In this document: positions 3,030-9,349 of the stretch, one piece after another
Layout of the letters: each line of letters opens with the position of its first letter
How positions within the stretch are numbered: the stretch's first letter is position 1
From: an uncultured Methylobacter sp.
GTDB taxonomy: Bacteria > Pseudomonadota > Gammaproteobacteria > Methylococcales > Methylomonadaceae
Assembly (NCBI GenBank): GCA_903831545.1
Contig: CAIKYI010000331.1
Span: forward strand, 1-12,029
DNA length: 12,029 nucleotides
Reading direction: 5' to 3'
Made by a program: the position numbers and the translations under genes
The notes under the pieces: model-generated
The model's input: only the letters and a program-made list of their open reading frames with translations
Told to the model about the DNA's origin: nothing
The model's database searches: none

Positions 3030-3058
3030 CTGACAAAAGACTTTTGGTTGGCTACAAA
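3030..3058 (+). promoter_or_regulatory. Candidate sigma70 promoter for the arsenic cassette
   Basis: CTGACA (3030-3035; five of six matches to TTGACA) is followed by a 17-nt spacer and TACAAA (3053-3058; four of six matches to TATAAT). The predicted start would be near 3065, giving a leader of about 15 nt that still contains the purine-rich AGGGGAAAGG before the arsM ATG at 3080. The call rests on consensus matching by eye only. Confidence 0.4.
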
Positions 3059-3079: not shown

Positions 3080-4123
3080 ATGACTAAGTCCGTCGAAATT
3101 AGCGAATCCGTGCGCCATTATTATGGTCAGGTTTTACAATCCAGCAATGATCTTAAAACCAGTGCCTGTTGCACTATTGACAGCATGCCCGCTCACCTGA
3201 AAGTTTTATTGGGGAGTTTGCACCCGGAAGTTCTGGAACGTTTTTATGGTTGCGGTTCGCCTCTCCCGCCCGCTTTATGGGGTAAGACAGTGTTGGATCT
3301 GGGTTGTGGTTCGGGACGTGACTGTTATTTGCTATCCAGACTGGTAGGTCCTGAAGGCCTTGTCATTGGCGTTGATATGACGCCCGAACAACTTGAAGTC
3401 GCATTGCGTCATCGCGATTGGCATGCGGAGAGTTTTGGTTATGCCAATGTGGAATTTTTACATGGCCATATCGAAAACCTCGCGGCGATTGGCATTGATG
3501 ACGACAGTATCGACGTGGTGATTTCCAATTGTGTAATCAACCTGTCACCCGACAAACCCAAGGTGCTGGCAGAAATTTTCAGGGTACTCAAACCCGGCGG
3601 TGAACTGTATTTTTCAGATGTTTTTGCCGACCGTCGCGTTCCTGTTGCCTTGCAAAAAGATCCGGTTTTATTGGGCGAATGTCTGGGAGGCGCTTTGTAT
3701 TGGGAGGATTTCCGGCGGGTTTTGCAAGCTCTGGGTTGTCCGGACGTACGCGTTGTCAAACAAAATCCAATCAGTTTAAACGATGCGGAAGTCGTGGCCA
3801 AAATTGGCATGATCAACTTTAGCTCAGTCACTGTCAGTGCGTTTAAGCTTCCGCTGGAAGACCGTTGCGAGGATTACGGGCAAGTCGCATATTATCTTGG
3901 CACTATTCCCGAACATCTTCACGGTTTCGATCTGGACGATCATCATCATTTTGAAACTGGCCGCCCGTTGCGGGTTTGTGGAAACACCGCCGATATGCTG
4001 CAGGACAGTCGCTATGCCGAGCATTTTCAGGTGTTGGGCGACAAGTCACGACATTTCGGTTTGTTCGATTGTACGTCTGGTCCGCAAGGTTCTTCGGCAG
4101 AAACGAGTGGCTTGTGTTGTTGA
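3080..4123 (+). CDS. arsM: Arsenite S-adenosylmethionine methyltransferase ArsM (arsenosugar type)
   Basis: ArsM transfers methyl groups from SAM to thiol-bound As(III), giving mono- and dimethylarsenicals in the cytosol. I chose the ATG at 3080 (347 residues), preceded by AGGGGAAAGG; a TTG at 3044 would add 12 residues and overlap the likely promoter. The class I SAM site is VLDLGCGSGRD (71-81), followed by GVDMTPEQ (97-104). Four Cys sit at the spacing of the arsenic-binding Cys of characterised ArsM: Cys30 (in SACC, with a neighbour Cys31), Cys58, Cys151 (SNCVINLSPDK) and Cys201 (GECLGGALYWEDF). The 28-residue and 50-residue intervals match Cys44-Cys72 and Cys174-Cys224 of the Cyanidioschyzon enzyme. 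The C-terminal domain includes RHFGLFDC (324-331) and ends in a vicinal Cys pair (GLCC). Its position upstream of arsS suggests that it supplies dimethylarsenic for arsenosugar synthesis. Confidence in the arsenic substrate is high. Confidence 0.93.
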   Translation: MTKSVEISESVRHYYGQVLQSSNDLKTSACCTIDSMPAHLKVLLGSLHPEVLERFYGCGSPLPPALWGKTVLDLGCGSGRDCYLLSRLVGPEGLVIGVDMTPEQLEVALRHRDWHAESFGYANVEFLHGHIENLAAIGIDDDSIDVVISNCVINLSPDKPKVLAEIFRVLKPGGELYFSDVFADRRVPVALQKDPVLLGECLGGALYWEDFRRVLQALGCPDVRVVKQNPISLNDAEVVAKIGMINFSSVTVSAFKLPLEDRCEDYGQVAYYLGTIPEHLHGFDLDDHHHFETGRPLRVCGNTADMLQDSRYAEHFQVLGDKSRHFGLFDCTSGPQGSSAETSGLCC

Positions 4124-4161
4124 ACAGTGCACCAAGCATTTACTGTTGATTTCAAAATCAA
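4123..4161 (+). promoter_or_regulatory. Two adjacent dyads between arsM and the GDCCVxC gene
   Basis: Right at the arsM stop codon, AACAG (4123-4127) and CTGTT (4143-4147) can pair, extended inside by TGC/GCA around an ACCAA loop. Immediately after comes a perfect AT-rich dyad, TTGATTT (4146-4152) with AAATCAA (4155-4161). Neither hairpin is followed by a run of T, so a strong intrinsic terminator is unlikely. They could protect the arsM 3' end, attenuate readthrough into the downstream genes, or bind a regulator. The 117-nt gap here is the largest inside the cassette. No clear sigma70 promoter could be picked out in the rest of the gap. Confidence 0.25.
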
Positions 4162-4240
4162 TTTGAAGAGGCATCAAGTTTGTTAACTATGAGGTTATTT
4201 TCGTTTATTTGCGTCTAACAATTATTTTGAAAAATTTCTT

Positions 4241-4462
4241 ATGAACACTGCTATTTTGGAATCAACGTTAATATGCCCGCATTGCGGTTACAGCAAAACT
4301 GAGCAAATGCCCACTGACGCCTGCCTGTGGTTTTACCAATGCGAGGGCTGTCATACACTTTTAAAACCCAAACCCGGCGATTGCTGCGTGTTCTGTTCCT
4401 ATGGCAGCGTCGCTTGTCCGCCTATTCAGTTGCATGGTAAAAATGCCGGTTGTTGTGGCTGA
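4241..4462 (+). CDS. Small Cys-rich GDCCVxC-domain protein
   Basis: This 73-residue cytosolic protein carries 11 cysteines. The motif GDCCVFC (47-52, plus Gly46) followed by YGSVACPP (54-61) identifies the 'GDCCVxC domain-containing (seleno)protein' family, in which some members have selenocysteine. Here every candidate position is encoded by a Cys codon and no in-frame TGA is used. CPHC (12-15) and CEGC (34-37) look like a zinc-ribbon-type metal site, and the protein ends GCCG. The family is known to occur beside arsS-type radical SAM genes, as it does here. Its biochemical role is not established. A thiol carrier or sensor for As(III) or methylarsenic is my inference from the Cys content and the neighbours. 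The start ATG lacks a strong Shine-Dalgarno. The gene is short, but its motif makes it clearly real. Confidence 0.88.
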   Translation: MNTAILESTLICPHCGYSKTEQMPTDACLWFYQCEGCHTLLKPKPGDCCVFCSYGSVACPPIQLHGKNAGCCG

Positions 4463-4507
4463 CCATGATAAGGAAACAGGCGCTATCGGGTATTCCAGAG
4501 AATACTG

Positions 4508-5467
4508 ATGCGTGACACCAAACCACTACTCGCCACCAGTGACTTTCCGGCCATTTTTCGAAAACAGCCGGATATACTGCAAATAAATTTGGGGTATCTT
4601 TGCAATCTTAGTTGTGTACATTGCCACGTCAACGCTGGCCCCAAGCGCACAGAAATGATGAGTCAGGCTACGCTGGAGCAGGTTTTGGCCTTTGCACAAG
4701 CGGCCAAGGTTCATACTCTTGATTTAACTGGCGGCGCACCGGAAATGCACTCGCATTTTTACATGTTGGTTGAAGCCGCCCGCGGTCTGGGGATTAAGGT
4801 CATTGATCGTTGTAATCTGACCATTTTGGAAGATTCGCGTTATCCGGGTTTGGCGGAATTTATGGCGGCACAACAAGTTGAAATCATCGCCTCACTGCCT
4901 TGTTATCTTGAAGAAAATGTCGATAAACAGCGCGGTAAAGGCGTGTTTAAAGACAGTTTAAAGGCTTTGCAACGGCTAAATAAACTGGGCTATGGTCAAC
5001 CGGATAATTCGCTACAACTTAATCTGGTTTTCAATCCGCAAGGTGCCGAGTTGCCGCCAGAGCAAAAAAATCTGGAGCAGGCTTACAAACAGCATTTGCT
5101 GGAGCATTATGGCATCGTTTTTAATCGGCTTTATGCCATTGTAAATATGCCTATCCAGCGTTTTGGCAGTGTGCTGCTCAGCCAAGGCCAGTTTGATGCC
5201 TATCTTAAACTTCTGCGTGACAATTTTTGCCAAGCCAATCTGGCGCATTTGATGTGTTTGAATACGCTGAGTATTGATTGGCAGGGTTTTGTTTACGATT
5301 GCGACTTCAATCAAATGCTGTCCCTACCGTTAGGCGCCATGCCCAAAGCGCAGGTGCATATCACCGATATAAATCTCGAAACCTTGGCTGGCAAAACCAT
5401 TAACACGGCAGCGCATTGTTACGGTTGCACGGCTGGACAGGGCAGCAGTTGTGGCGGCGCTTTATAA
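4508..5467 (+). CDS. arsS: Arsenosugar biosynthesis radical SAM protein ArsS
   Basis: ArsS belongs to the radical SAM/Cys-rich family TIGR04167. In cyanobacteria, members add the 5'-deoxyadenosyl group of SAM to dimethylarsenic, forming the arsenosugar precursor. The 319-residue protein has the 4Fe-4S motif CNLSCVHC at 32-39 (Cys32, Cys36, Cys39), the SAM-binding TGGAPE (74-79), and a second conserved block starting at Cys250 (CLNTLSIDWQG) with Cys265 in YDCDFNQM. The C-terminal tail is CYGCTAGQGSSCGGAL (Cys304, Cys307, Cys315). In some relatives a residue of this tail is selenocysteine; here it is Cys, and the gene ends in TAA. The spacing of 45 nt after the GDCCVxC gene and 21 nt to the next ATG supports one operon. 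The activity depends on dimethylarsenic from ArsM upstream. The family call is very secure; the reaction is assigned by homology. Confidence 0.93.
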   Translation: MRDTKPLLATSDFPAIFRKQPDILQINLGYLCNLSCVHCHVNAGPKRTEMMSQATLEQVLAFAQAAKVHTLDLTGGAPEMHSHFYMLVEAARGLGIKVIDRCNLTILEDSRYPGLAEFMAAQQVEIIASLPCYLEENVDKQRGKGVFKDSLKALQRLNKLGYGQPDNSLQLNLVFNPQGAELPPEQKNLEQAYKQHLLEHYGIVFNRLYAIVNMPIQRFGSVLLSQGQFDAYLKLLRDNFCQANLAHLMCLNTLSIDWQGFVYDCDFNQMLSLPLGAMPKAQVHITDINLETLAGKTINTAAHCYGCTAGQGSSCGGAL

Positions 5468-5488
5468 CACAGTTTTTTGAGTGACCTT

Positions 5489-6172
5489 ATGAAACCGCAA
5501 CTCAGTATTATCATTCCGGTTTTAAACGAAGCTGAACAACTTGCCGCCAGACTTCAAACCTTGCAACCCTTGCGGAATGTTTGTCAATTAGTGTTGGTCG
5601 ATGGCGGTAGCGAAGATGGTAGCGCACAAATCGCCGCACCGCTGGTTGATCAGGTTTTACATAGCCCACGCGGTAGGGCCAGGCAGATGAATTGCGGTGC
5701 GGCTTATGCTGAAGCCGAAGTGTTGATGTTTTTACATGTCGATACCTGTTTACCGGTTAATGCCCCGGATGTGATCTTGGCGGCAGTTGCCCTGGGCTAT
5801 CACTGGGGACGTTTTGATGTCAGCTTTGACGCTCTTCAGCCTATTCTTAAACTGATTGCCTTTATGATGAACTGGCGTTCGAGACTTACCGGAATTGCAA
5901 CCGGCGATCAGACCCTGTTTGTGACTCGCGAGACTTTTAACAAAGTTGAAGGCTTTCCTGATATTGCATTGATGGAAGATATTGCTGTTAGTGCCCGTCT
6001 TAAAAAGATGGGTAGACCTTGCTGTCTGTCAGCAAAGGTCGTTACCTCGGCACGGCGCTGGCAACAGCAGGGCATTATCAAAACCATTCTGTTGATGTGG
6101 TGGCTGCGACTAAGTTATTTTTTTGGTGTTGATCCAAACGTATTGCTTGGTCAATATTATCGAAAACCTTAA
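5489..6172 (+). CDS. Family 2 glycosyltransferase, TIGR04283 (rSAM/selenodomain-associated transferase 2)
   Basis: This is a GT-A fold, GT2-type glycosyltransferase of 227 residues counted from the ATG at 5489. A TTG at 5477 would add four residues, and neither start has a clear ribosome binding site. The N-terminus SIIIPVLNEAEQL and the nucleotide-binding VDGGSEDGS (37-45) are typical. HVDT (83-86) sits at the position of the DxD metal motif, followed by TGDQTLFV (138-145) and the catalytic-type MEDIAVSAR (162-170). A hydrophobic stretch near 198-213 (KTILLMWWLRLSYFFG) may be a membrane association patch. Sugar donor and acceptor are unknown for the family. Its place directly after arsS, in a family defined by co-occurrence with such radical SAM genes, suggests a role in maturing the arsenosugar, for example making the glycosidic link to the aglycone. 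That role is inference. Confidence 0.85.
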   Translation: MKPQLSIIIPVLNEAEQLAARLQTLQPLRNVCQLVLVDGGSEDGSAQIAAPLVDQVLHSPRGRARQMNCGAAYAEAEVLMFLHVDTCLPVNAPDVILAAVALGYHWGRFDVSFDALQPILKLIAFMMNWRSRLTGIATGDQTLFVTRETFNKVEGFPDIALMEDIAVSARLKKMGRPCCLSAKVVTSARRWQQQGIIKTILLMWWLRLSYFFGVDPNVLLGQYYRKP

Positions 6173-6181
6173 TTATTATCC

Positions 6182-6859
6182 ATGACCACACTTTTCCCTG
6201 ACAGTGTTTTGCTGGTTTTTTGTAAAGCGCCTATAGATGGTCAAGTTAAAACCCGGCTGCAACCTGCTTTAACTGCAAGCGAAGCTACATTAGCGCATCG
6301 GCAACTGACAAGATTAACCTTGGCGCGAGCTTTTCAGAAACCGTTGTGTGAAGTTCAGTTATATTGCTCGCCTGATACCAGTCATGTTTTTTTCGGGGAA
6401 TGTGCCGAGGATTATCCGCTGACCTTGTTCACGCAACGTGGCGACGATCTGGGAGAGAGGATGCTTAATGCGCTGAGCGATGCACTGGCACGGCATCCAC
6501 ACGCGCTGCTTATCGGTTGTGATTGTCCCAGTCTCAGCGTTGATGATTTACAGCATGCGCTGTCAGTGCTTCAAAATGGCTGGGATGCGGTCATCGCACC
6601 TGCCGAAGACGGTGGTTATGTGTTGATTGGTCTAAACGCGCCACAACCCGTTTTATTTGAAAATATGGCCTGGGGCGGACCAACGGTTATGGCCGAAACC
6701 CGGCATCGCGCAAAAAAAGCATCCTTAGCAGTGCATGAGTTGGCTATGCAATGGGATGTCGATACGGTAGAGGATTGGGCCCGATATTTAGTCTTAGCCA
6801 AGGCAGGTATGAAAATGGAACACGGATTTAAGCTGATTAACACGGATATAAAAGAGTAA
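6182..6859 (+). CDS. TIGR04282/DUF2064 transferase (rSAM/selenodomain-associated transferase 1)
   Basis: This 225-residue protein belongs to the DUF2064 group, with a nucleotidyltransferase/GT-A-like fold related to CofC and MobA. Characteristic blocks are FCKAPIDGQVKTRL (13-26), RGDDLGERM (86-94), IGCDCPSLS (111-119), APAEDGGYVLIGL (139-151) and WGGPTVM (164-170). It starts 9 nt after the TIGR04283 gene, so the two are probably co-translated, and the families often occur as a pair. It could activate a sugar or alcohol as a nucleotide conjugate, or transfer one. The substrate is unknown. Roughly the last 15 residues (from about KMEHGFKLINTDIKE) are encoded by the left arm of an inverted repeat, so the natural C-terminus may have been replaced or extended by the repeat. 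The body of the domain looks complete. Confidence 0.85.
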   Translation: MTTLFPDSVLLVFCKAPIDGQVKTRLQPALTASEATLAHRQLTRLTLARAFQKPLCEVQLYCSPDTSHVFFGECAEDYPLTLFTQRGDDLGERMLNALSDALARHPHALLIGCDCPSLSVDDLQHALSVLQNGWDAVIAPAEDGGYVLIGLNAPQPVLFENMAWGGPTVMAETRHRAKKASLAVHELAMQWDVDTVEDWARYLVLAKAGMKMEHGFKLINTDIKE

Positions 6860-6922
6860 GAAGGTAGGCTTTGATTTTTAAGAAATCAGGGTAAATCCTG
6901 ACGATCCGTGTCATCCGTGCTC
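6816..6922. repeat. Inverted repeat of CACGGAT/ATCCGTG words between convergent genes
   Basis: The left arm holds CACGGAT twice (6821-6827 and 6841-6847) and the right arm holds the reverse complement ATCCGTG twice (6904-6910 and 6913-6919). Between them lie two overlapping, mutually exclusive hairpins: TGATTT (6872-6877) with AAATCA (6883-6888), and TCAGG (6886-6890) with CCTGA (6897-6901). On the minus strand the second is followed by a T-rich stretch and could weakly terminate the transporter transcript. Tandem 'ATCCGTG' words are, to my recollection, common in dispersed short repeats of several bacteria, so this is probably a copy of a mobile or dispersed palindromic element. The arms enter the 3' ends of both flanking genes. 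Confidence 0.5.
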
Positions 6923-7807
6923 TATTGTTCTATGAAATAAACCGGTTAAGCGATCAAAAAATTCATGCGTCAACAAGGCGCCGAGTATCAGTAATGTTCC
7001 GGTAACAACTTTAACGGTGAGCGGTTCATGATTAACAAAATGACCTAACAGCAGTGCCATGACCGGTGAAACCAGCGTGACCAGTGAAACTTTGGTAGCG
7101 CTTTGATGAAGCAGCAAATAGTAATAAAGCACGAAACCGGCTGTCGTGGCTATCATGCCCAGGTAAACAATTGATGCCAGACTCACGGGGGAGATTTCAA
7201 CCGGCCATTGACCGTCAAAGTAACTCCACGTAAGCAGATAAAGTGGAAGTGCAAATAAAAGCCCGCCAGAGACTTGTAATAATGACGGTATGTTCGCATT
7301 AATACGTTTGACCCACACCGAACTCAGTGCCTGTAAAAAAGTGGAGGCCAGAGCGCCAATAATGCCCAGTACAGCGTCATGACCCAATTGCAATGCTGAG
7401 CCAAACATAATCCACAAACCGCTGACACCCATCAAATAAGCCAGCACATTGCCTAAAGTCAGGCTTCTTTCACCCAGGCATAAAGCGGCCAATAAGGCCG
7501 TCATCAACGGCAAAAGACCAAATATCACCGATATCCAGCCGGAAGGTATAAATTGCGCTGCCCAATACACGACCAGCATGGAGCCATATATTTGCAGGGC
7601 AACGGCAAGATAGGTCTGCAGAGCTTTCCGATGCACGGGCAAGCGTTGCCTCGACAGAACTAATATCAACAGCAGGCAAACCGTACCGATTGCCATGCGT
7701 CCGGTCACGCCAAACAGAAATCCCGGTCCTTGGCCGCTCCATTTGATAGCCAGCGGAGTAGTTGCCCACAATAAAATTATACTGAGATAGGCCAGTGGTA
7801 TACGCAT
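6911..7807 (-). CDS. DMT-superfamily (EamA) transporter
   Basis: This 298-residue inner-membrane protein shows the two-fold EamA repeat and about ten hydrophobic segments. The first repeat spans roughly residues 5-138 and ends after LGERSLT and VSGLWIMFG. The second spans about 146-285, with LVSPVMALLLGHFVNHEPLT at 243-264 mirroring the LLPLMTALLAALCLGERSLT block of the first. Family members export metabolites, amino acids or drugs; the substrate cannot be read from sequence. CAGGTAA directly before the ATG serves as ribosome binding site. It follows the cupin gene by 32 nt on the same strand, so the two probably form an operon. Its end lies within the inverted repeat that also reaches the arsenic cassette; the final residues (about TIEHG) are repeat-encoded. 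A link to arsenosugar export is possible only by proximity. Confidence 0.88.
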   Translation of the reverse strand: MRIPLAYLSIILLWATTPLAIKWSGQGPGFLFGVTGRMAIGTVCLLLILVLSRQRLPVHRKALQTYLAVALQIYGSMLVVYWAAQFIPSGWISVIFGLLPLMTALLAALCLGERSLTLGNVLAYLMGVSGLWIMFGSALQLGHDAVLGIIGALASTFLQALSSVWVKRINANIPSLLQVSGGLLFALPLYLLTWSYFDGQWPVEISPVSLASIVYLGMIATTAGFVLYYYLLLHQSATKVSLVTLVSPVMALLLGHFVNHEPLTVKVVTGTLLILGALLTHEFFDRLTGLFHRTIEHG

Positions 7808-7839
7808 TTACCTGATTTTAAATAACAAAAATGTAGGTT

Positions 7840-8235
7840 TCATTTATCAGGCGCTAATTCAAAAATAATCAGTTCAGCAGTATCTGTACTTATATTTTCA
7901 ACCGACATCAGTTCGCCCGTTTCCCAAAAGACTTCACCCGCGGCGTAAGTGTTGGCATTACCGCCTTCGACGACTTTTAATTTGCCCTTTACTACATAGC
8001 GCGGCCCCGGTCCTTCATGGGTATGCCAAGGTGTTTTAAAGGCAGGTGGAAACGTCACCCGTAGTATTTTGGCGGTGAGGTTTGGACTTGGAAGTTCAAG
8101 CTTTTTTTCTAATAGCAGGTTTTTGGATAAGCCGGGTTTTTCTTGGGCTAAAACGGCTTGTGTGCCGCCAACATAGCCAAGCATAAGCGTCGCCAGTAAA
8201 AATAGAGTGAGTCTGATAGTGCGTGTGTTTAACAT
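7840..8235 (-). CDS. Secreted cupin-domain protein
   Basis: This is a 131-residue single-domain cupin with a Sec signal peptide: TRTIR near the N-terminus, a hydrophobic core LTLFLLATLMLGYVGG, and probable cleavage after AVLA (about residue 30), so the mature protein should be periplasmic. I chose the ATG at 8233-8235 because AAGAGG precedes it at normal spacing. An ATG 21 nt upstream (8254-8256) is in frame, would overlap that site, and would place extra residues before the signal. Cupin motif 1 gives HTHEGPGPRYVVKGKL with His71 and His73. Motif 2 (GEVFWETGELMSVEN, 100-114) lacks the usual His, so a full 3-His/1-Glu metal site is not evident. The gene is upstream of the transporter on the same strand. 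The ligand or reaction is unknown. Confidence 0.82.
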   Translation of the reverse strand: MLNTRTIRLTLFLLATLMLGYVGGTQAVLAQEKPGLSKNLLLEKKLELPSPNLTAKILRVTFPPAFKTPWHTHEGPGPRYVVKGKLKVVEGGNANTYAAGEVFWETGELMSVENISTDTAELIIFELAPDK

Positions 8236-8413
8236 TTTTTGGCCTCTTAATTTCATGTTTAGAGAAAAACTAATAGTGGTTCAAGGTGATAATTGTACGC
8301 TACCCGGTTTTTCTATTTGTTAAATTCTTAAAATGCACACAGAATAGCCGTATCAATGTAAGACCGTGACTGACCAATCCAATTATGGGGCAAGGTTCAG
8401 GGCAGGTAATTAA

Positions 8414-9349
<936 letters not shown>

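Follow-up and report, generated by a model that had tools for sequence, protein, structure and literature searches.

A five-gene arsM-arsS cassette in an uncultured Methylobacter and a possible phosphorolytic route to arsenosugars

The window analysed here, a stretch of 12,029 nucleotides that comprises all of contig C331 from a metagenome-assembled genome of an uncultured Methylobacter (72.7% complete, 805 contigs), carries a compact cassette encoding the arsenite methyltransferase ArsM, a GDCCVxC domain thiol protein, the radical SAM (S-adenosylmethionine) enzyme ArsS and one member each of the TIGR04283 and TIGR04282 families. For the steps that follow ArsS we propose, with a probability of about 0.35, a phosphorolytic route resembling nucleoside salvage, in which 5'-methylthioadenosine (MTA) phosphorylase (MTAP) would release an arsenoribose phosphate, TIGR04282 (in that case misnamed as a glycosyltransferase) would act as an arsenoribose-1-phosphate nucleotidylyltransferase and TIGR04283 would form the beta-riboside; most methanotrophs of the family, as bearers of ArsS, would then be an overlooked source of arsenosugars.

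All five genes lie on one strand with gaps of 117, 45, 21 and 9 bp, when arsM is read from the ATG at 3080 and the TIGR04283 gene from the ATG at 5489. The gene calls, single direction and short gaps given in a first-pass annotation were borne out by the list of open frames and by an NCBIfam scan, in which four of the five genes score over curated cut-offs, ArsM being the exception. A second uncultured Methylobacter (locus L092; L195 is the same place) has all five genes in an identical order, with identities of 86, 79, 77, 73 and 74% and gaps of 37, 71, 0 and 19 bp, and its flanking genes differ from those of the window on both sides. The recurrence of the five-gene order between different flanks in two Methylobacter genomes supports the cassette as a real unit, as had been supposed. 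The closest named relatives are Methylobacter and other Methylococcales, in agreement with the gammaproteobacterial host initially suggested, and we take the host to be a methanotroph belonging to the Methylobacter group.

Concerning the spread of the cassette kind, samples of 101 genomes from the family and 369 from the class contained 82 and 180 genomes, respectively, with an ArsS over its cut-off. A neighbourhood search for ArsS with the two transferase families, for which 80 of the 103 named ArsS loci found were kept, gave the immediate order ArsS-TIGR04283-TIGR04282 in 25 of the 80 (24 of 41 non-methanotroph loci and 1 of 39 methanotroph loci, a split made by record titles and ArsS similarity that contains one record titled only 'proteobacterium'). 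By these counts cassettes of this kind are widespread, the window being a compact example whose order is unusual among methanotrophs. In a quick tree of 97 rows, built with no bootstrap, the window ArsS falls within a group of ten sequences with a Shimodaira-Hasegawa-like approximate likelihood ratio (SH-aLRT) of 100; rows with fewer than 280 aligned residues and duplicates had been left out, and 97 of the 123 rows were then taken. Its nearest named relative is the ArsS of L092 (77%), and the next matches are mostly from Methylococcales. The remaining methanotroph lineages of the tree are paired with other ArsM types and stand in other gene orders.

The arsM gene (3080..4123, + strand, 347 aa; a TTG at 3044 is also open) encodes a protein that matches the solved ArsM structure 5evj with an E-value of 1.4e-111 over residues 8-339, and its Cys 30, 58, 151 and 201 align with the ArsM cysteines of that structure. 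It scores under both NCBIfam ArsM cut-offs (NF008823, 201.8 against 263 bits; the arsenosugar ArsM model NF038099, 118.1 against 400). An ArsM enzyme is indicated by homology along almost the entire protein and by the presence of all four cysteines. These conserved cysteines are known to be important in ArsM proteins. That they matter is also stated in the part of PMC8552651 available to us. The arsS gene (4508..5467, + strand) encodes a 319 aa radical SAM protein with 453.5 bits against the TIGR04167 cut-off of 300. It contains the Radical_SAM and DUF3641 (PF12345) domains, the C32xxxC36xxC39 motif and the C-terminal cysteines C304, C307 and C315, and its C-terminal HCYGCTAGQGSSC is common to most relatives among those listed. 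Judged by family score, CxxxCxxC motif, DUF3641 domain and C-terminal cysteine motif, the protein is predicted to be a genuine ArsS. A selenoprotein reading was rejected, as the window ArsS and GDCCVxC protein use cysteine throughout, though both families include selenoproteins. Only one ArsS gene, that of L069, showed an in-frame TGA, which replaces a conserved Trp and not a Cys, and this gene is taken for a broken or misread copy.

The arsenosugar reading initially given to the arsM-arsS pair is supported by these families and motifs and by published chemistry: according to the portions consulted of PMC12159101 and PMC8552651, ArsM and ArsS catalyse the first arsenosugar steps in Synechocystis (SsArsM/SsArsS). 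Shared with that system, by family and motifs, are an ArsM and a radical SAM enzyme of TIGR04167 that carries DUF3641 and the CxxxCxxC motif; unlike it, the window combines both genes with those of a thiol protein and two transferase families in a single cassette, and its product is a predicted one. The arsinothricin cluster arsQML also places an ArsM beside an arsenic radical SAM enzyme, but there ArsL transfers an aminocarboxypropyl group and ArsQ exports (PMC8552651, in the part available), whereas the window has ArsS and no such exporter. Identity with that cluster was ruled out, given that the radical SAM protein scores over the TIGR04167 cut-off and that the sole transporter among the ten window proteins scanned is an EamA gene on the opposite strand.

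The two last genes had been described as two transferases, a description that fits the first of them well and the second less so. The TIGR04283 gene (5489..6172, + strand, 227 aa; a TTG at 5477 is also open) scores 276 bits against a cut-off of 182 when read from 5477. In an alignment of 29 sequences (28 of 32 rows plus the window) the GT2-like motifs HxD85, ED163-164 and SxR189 are invariant and D38 is kept in at least 90%. With its score and its D, HxD, ED and RRW motifs, the protein looks like an inverting GT2 enzyme. The TIGR04282 (DUF2064) gene (6182..6859, + strand, 225 aa) scores 194.4 bits against 134, and its product is a probable nucleotidylyltransferase: the KxR, GxD, P-x(2)-DGG and DxxxD positions are invariant in 30 sequences (29 of 34 rows plus the window), the CofC model TIGR03552 matches residues 21-206 (E-value = 8e-10), and a profile search of the PDB at E 0.01 returned only 3cgx (1e-48), deposited as a putative nucleotide-diphospho-sugar transferase, and 2i5e (1e-3), which we take to be a CofC protein. 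This evidence tentatively suggests a CofC-type nucleotidylyltransferase rather than a sugar transferase, in contrast to the NCBIfam name 'arsenosugar biosynthesis glycosyltransferase', which covers both families and under which the window pair, over cut-off and in the common order ArsS-TIGR04283-TIGR04282, would otherwise fit. Compared with CofC, the 2-phospho-L-lactate guanylyltransferase of the F420 pathway, homology extends across most of TIGR04282 and includes KTRL-, DGG- and DIDxxxDL-like stretches, but the score is below the TIGR03552 cut-off (38.7 against 105 bits) and the gene context is different.

The company that the pair keeps with ArsS was followed in two random draws of 60 genomes from the class sample, one ArsS-positive and one ArsS-negative (without an ArsS match at E 1e-60). 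TIGR04283 scores over its cut-off in 56 of the positive and 5 of the negative genomes and TIGR04282 in 51 and 7, respectively; looser limits give 58 against 13 and 56 against 7. The two genes start less than 2 kb apart in 52 of the 56 ArsS-positive genomes with both, TIGR04283 lies less than 5 kb from ArsS in 37 of the 48 for which the place of ArsS was listed, and at L165 and L166 a single open frame holds both families (a search that left out minus-strand, distant (>5 kb) and stop-holding matches). Among the five ArsS-negative genomes with TIGR04283 over its cut-off, the contig of G308 begins in an arsM-like frame, so that its ArsS may be missing through assembly; G386 and G406 have fragmented assemblies, and the other two are G257 and G168.

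Because the expected product of ArsS is a 5'-arsenic analogue of 5'-methylthioadenosine, the co-occurrence of MTAP was also examined, in the first 40 genomes of each set and at E 1e-50. MTAP was found in 37 of 40 ArsS-positive against 16 of 40 ArsS-negative genomes (Fisher p = 8e-7, kinship ignored), and in 34 of 36 against 14 of 36 when one genome a family was taken; over the curated cut-off it is present in 32 of the 80 genomes in all. Within the genus it scores over the cut-off in 20 of 23 genomes, including that of the twin locus (G113). On plasmids MTAP lies within arsenosugar clusters of three genera, and in two of these it adjoins the pair: MTAP-TIGR04283-TIGR04282 are contiguous, with gaps of 17 and 8 bp, on a Burkholderia glumae plasmid, TIGR04283-TIGR04282-MTAP stand in this order in an unannotated stretch of a Cupriavidus plasmid, and in Acinetobacter portensis MTAP lies 2.2 kb past TIGR04282 on the opposite strand. 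All three plasmid MTAPs are over the TIGR01694 cut-off, that of Cupriavidus by half a bit. Five genera account for the 51 records of the plasmid collection that have TIGR04283; Burkholderia makes up 47 of these, and the listed Burkholderia records are nearly all alike and therefore best counted once. MTAP occurs in 70 records of the collection. Among the chromosomal and contig ArsS loci, an MTAP-like frame occurs at one place (L065, the same as L109), some 2.5 kb away from ArsS and on the opposite strand.

In the proposed route, ArsM would convert arsenite to dimethylarsenic(III), and ArsS would join this to the 5'-deoxyadenosyl group of SAM, giving the arsenic analogue of 5'-methylthioadenosine. 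A housekeeping MTAP, encoded elsewhere in the genome, would then take off adenine and leave arsenoribose alpha-1-phosphate, TIGR04282 would use a nucleoside triphosphate to turn this into a nucleoside diphosphate (NDP)-arsenoribose, and TIGR04283 would pass the arsenoribose on to a glycerol-type acceptor, forming a beta-riboside. An accessory thiol role, in buffering or handing over As(III), is probable for the GDCCVxC protein. We infer the steps from phosphorolysis onward, the acceptor and the role of the thiol protein, and the mechanism leans on gene context and stereochemistry. Phosphorolysis yields an alpha-1-phosphate, nucleotide transfer keeps the anomer, and an inverting GT2 enzyme gives a beta-riboside. 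Natural arsenosugars are beta-ribofuranosides (according to the title of PMC6656958), as would be expected from an alpha-1-phosphate as donor and a GT2 enzyme that inverts. Taken as a whole, the proposition that the cassette makes an arsenosugar (5-deoxy-5-dimethylarsinoyl riboside) by these steps stands in our judgement at even odds.

Several observations weigh against the phosphorolytic route. MTAP is a housekeeping gene, and its link with ArsS is weaker (28 of 30 against 12 of 20, p = 0.009) when the count is confined to genomes with 2.3 Mb or more and a completeness of 90% or more. It was not found in the 72.7% of the window's own genome that is represented, a comparison by eye of the 37 ArsS-positive genomes with MTAP gave none that has it less than 10 kb from TIGR04283, and the Thiodictyon and Hymenobacter plasmid clusters (two of the five genera) have none in the stretches read. 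The homology of TIGR04282 with CofC says nothing on its substrate. At E 1e-25 a TIGR04283-like frame occurs in 13 of the 60 ArsS-negative genomes, two genomes that are 98-99% complete (G257 and G168) carry the TIGR04283-TIGR04282 pair without ArsS, and most methanotroph ArsS loci have no pair nearby in the stretches covered, with each family in 6 of 39 named loci.

The last two of these observations also favour a different explanation, in which only ArsM and ArsS act on arsenic: a nucleosidase would hydrolyse dimethylarsinoyl-adenosine, ordinary enzymes would glycosylate the result, and the pair would attach an ordinary sugar to the product or to a lipid of the envelope, for arsenolipids or for membrane repair under arsenic stress. 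The fatty acid hydroxylase and DUF3047 genes in several relatives' clusters are consistent with such a role. Yet the strong preference of both families for ArsS-positive genomes in the class sample speaks against it, and MTAP beside the pair on plasmids ties the pair to nucleoside cleavage; on balance we consider this explanation unlikely. A second alternative would have TIGR04282 activate the acceptor, as a CofC-like nucleotide adduct of a small phospho-acid or of glycerol phosphate, so that the glycerol side chain of the arsenosugar would be the work of the pair. In its favour, profile comparison places the CofC-type guanylyltransferase (TIGR03552; 2i5e) nearest among named enzyme models, and the substrates of such enzymes are small phosphorylated acids. 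Still, a GT2 partner needs an activated sugar, and an adjoining MTAP would supply exactly a sugar-1-phosphate, which makes this second alternative quite improbable to us.

The first-pass annotation had also argued for dedicated production of an organoarsenical from the lack of arsR, an arsenite pump and an arsenate reductase. These genes are indeed missing from the 12 kb contig, but not from the genome: contig C561 carries acr3, a low-molecular-weight-type arsC (under the NCBIfam cut-offs and over the Pfam LMWPc cut-off) and arsR in a row, and within the genus 21 of 23 genomes have an Acr3 that scores over its cut-off. That the window lacks these genes thus gives no argument for dedicated synthesis, and that reasoning is not supported. 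A plain detoxification module, with the organoarsenical as a waste form and the transferases as passengers, would suit this arsR-arsC-acr3 set and the general knowledge of ArsM as a detoxification enzyme, but it is very unlikely in view of the company of ArsS and the transferase pair across the class sample and of the five genes standing together at two different genomic sites in the genus.

Apart from these enzymes, the cassette holds the GDCCVxC gene (4241..4462, + strand), whose 73 aa product has 11 cysteines, carries the GDCCVxC motif and scores 107.2 bits against the NF041374 cut-off of 40; nine of the 11 cysteines are invariant in 19 chosen sequences. A thiol-rich small protein packed into the cassette had been noted, and it is there, but its family is a general one, also found in mer operons. 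Relatives scored in 2399 of 2401 candidates, the family occurs in 347 plasmid records, and in both plasmid loci opened the gene directly follows merP. Within the genus, 12 of 23 genomes have it, that of the window among them, and it lies close to arsM in 5 of 12 other loci read. On these grounds a part specific to arsenosugars was rejected, and the protein is better regarded as a soft-metal thiol protein of general use that has been recruited into the cassette.

Around the cassette, a PP2C phosphatase gene lies upstream and EamA, cupin and HemF genes downstream (2245-2979, 6911-9349), with no sign of anything that ties them to it. Promoter-like and terminator-like matches in the window were no more than in shuffled sequence, an Rfam scan of the window gave nothing at gathering scores, and 28 arsM upstream stretches compared by eye (the window's included, some of the same place twice) had no common motif apparent. 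The larger clusters of relatives add genes for an extracytoplasmic function (ECF) sigma factor, a pyridine-nucleotide oxidoreductase, VTT, DUF547 and DUF3047 proteins and a fatty acid hydroxylase. Of 60 family loci, 27 have a DUF3047-type family directly upstream of arsS (e.g., L063:9462-10130). At L189 (5754-6776, 9093-10202) arsM directly follows a PiT-type phosphate transporter, and the cluster holds an HvfA-like EGKCG precursor of a ribosomally synthesised and post-translationally modified peptide (RiPP), as well as HvfX; on the Burkholderia glumae plasmid, DUF2282, DUF692 and DoxX genes lie near the arsenosugar cluster. Five genomes (G042, G023, G017, G049 and G050) have a full arsS and additional matches as fragments only, some with stops, which suggests decaying extra copies, and in G021 the sole copy listed is split in two pieces. 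In G168, locus L205 (7217-10597) has consecutive genes for TIGR04283, TIGR04282, an APH-type kinase and a nucleoside hydrolase, an arrangement that might reflect the use of this sugar-activation scheme for a different nucleoside; when the L205 genes served as queries, no such hydrolase or kinase was found near ArsS in other loci.

The chemistry of ArsM and ArsS is already known (PMC12159101 and PMC8552651, in the parts available), and NCBIfam names ArsS, TIGR04283 and TIGR04282 for arsenosugar biosynthesis; what is added here is a proposed mechanism for the steps after ArsS. A narrow literature search, in which MTAP was not searched together with arsenosugars, did not find the functional proposal for TIGR04282 and MTAP or the breadth of ArsS in methanotrophs in print. 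As far as their accessible text goes, PMC13188914, PMC9312934 and PMC11237643 carry the TIGR numbers and none is experimental on TIGR04282 or TIGR04283 proteins, and PMC5552862 mentions arsenosugars once. In the main text of PMC12810054, which deals with 97 Methylobacter genomes, no word begins with 'arsen'. The literature, to the extent that it was accessible, assigns only the ArsM and ArsS steps, and how the nucleoside becomes the glycoside of algae and seafood is the question at stake. Given a compact methanotroph cassette and an inexpensive genetic hypothesis for every missing step, this question can be put to a direct test. If methanotrophs do make arsenosugars, methane oxidation would be linked with arsenic cycling in lakes and paddies.

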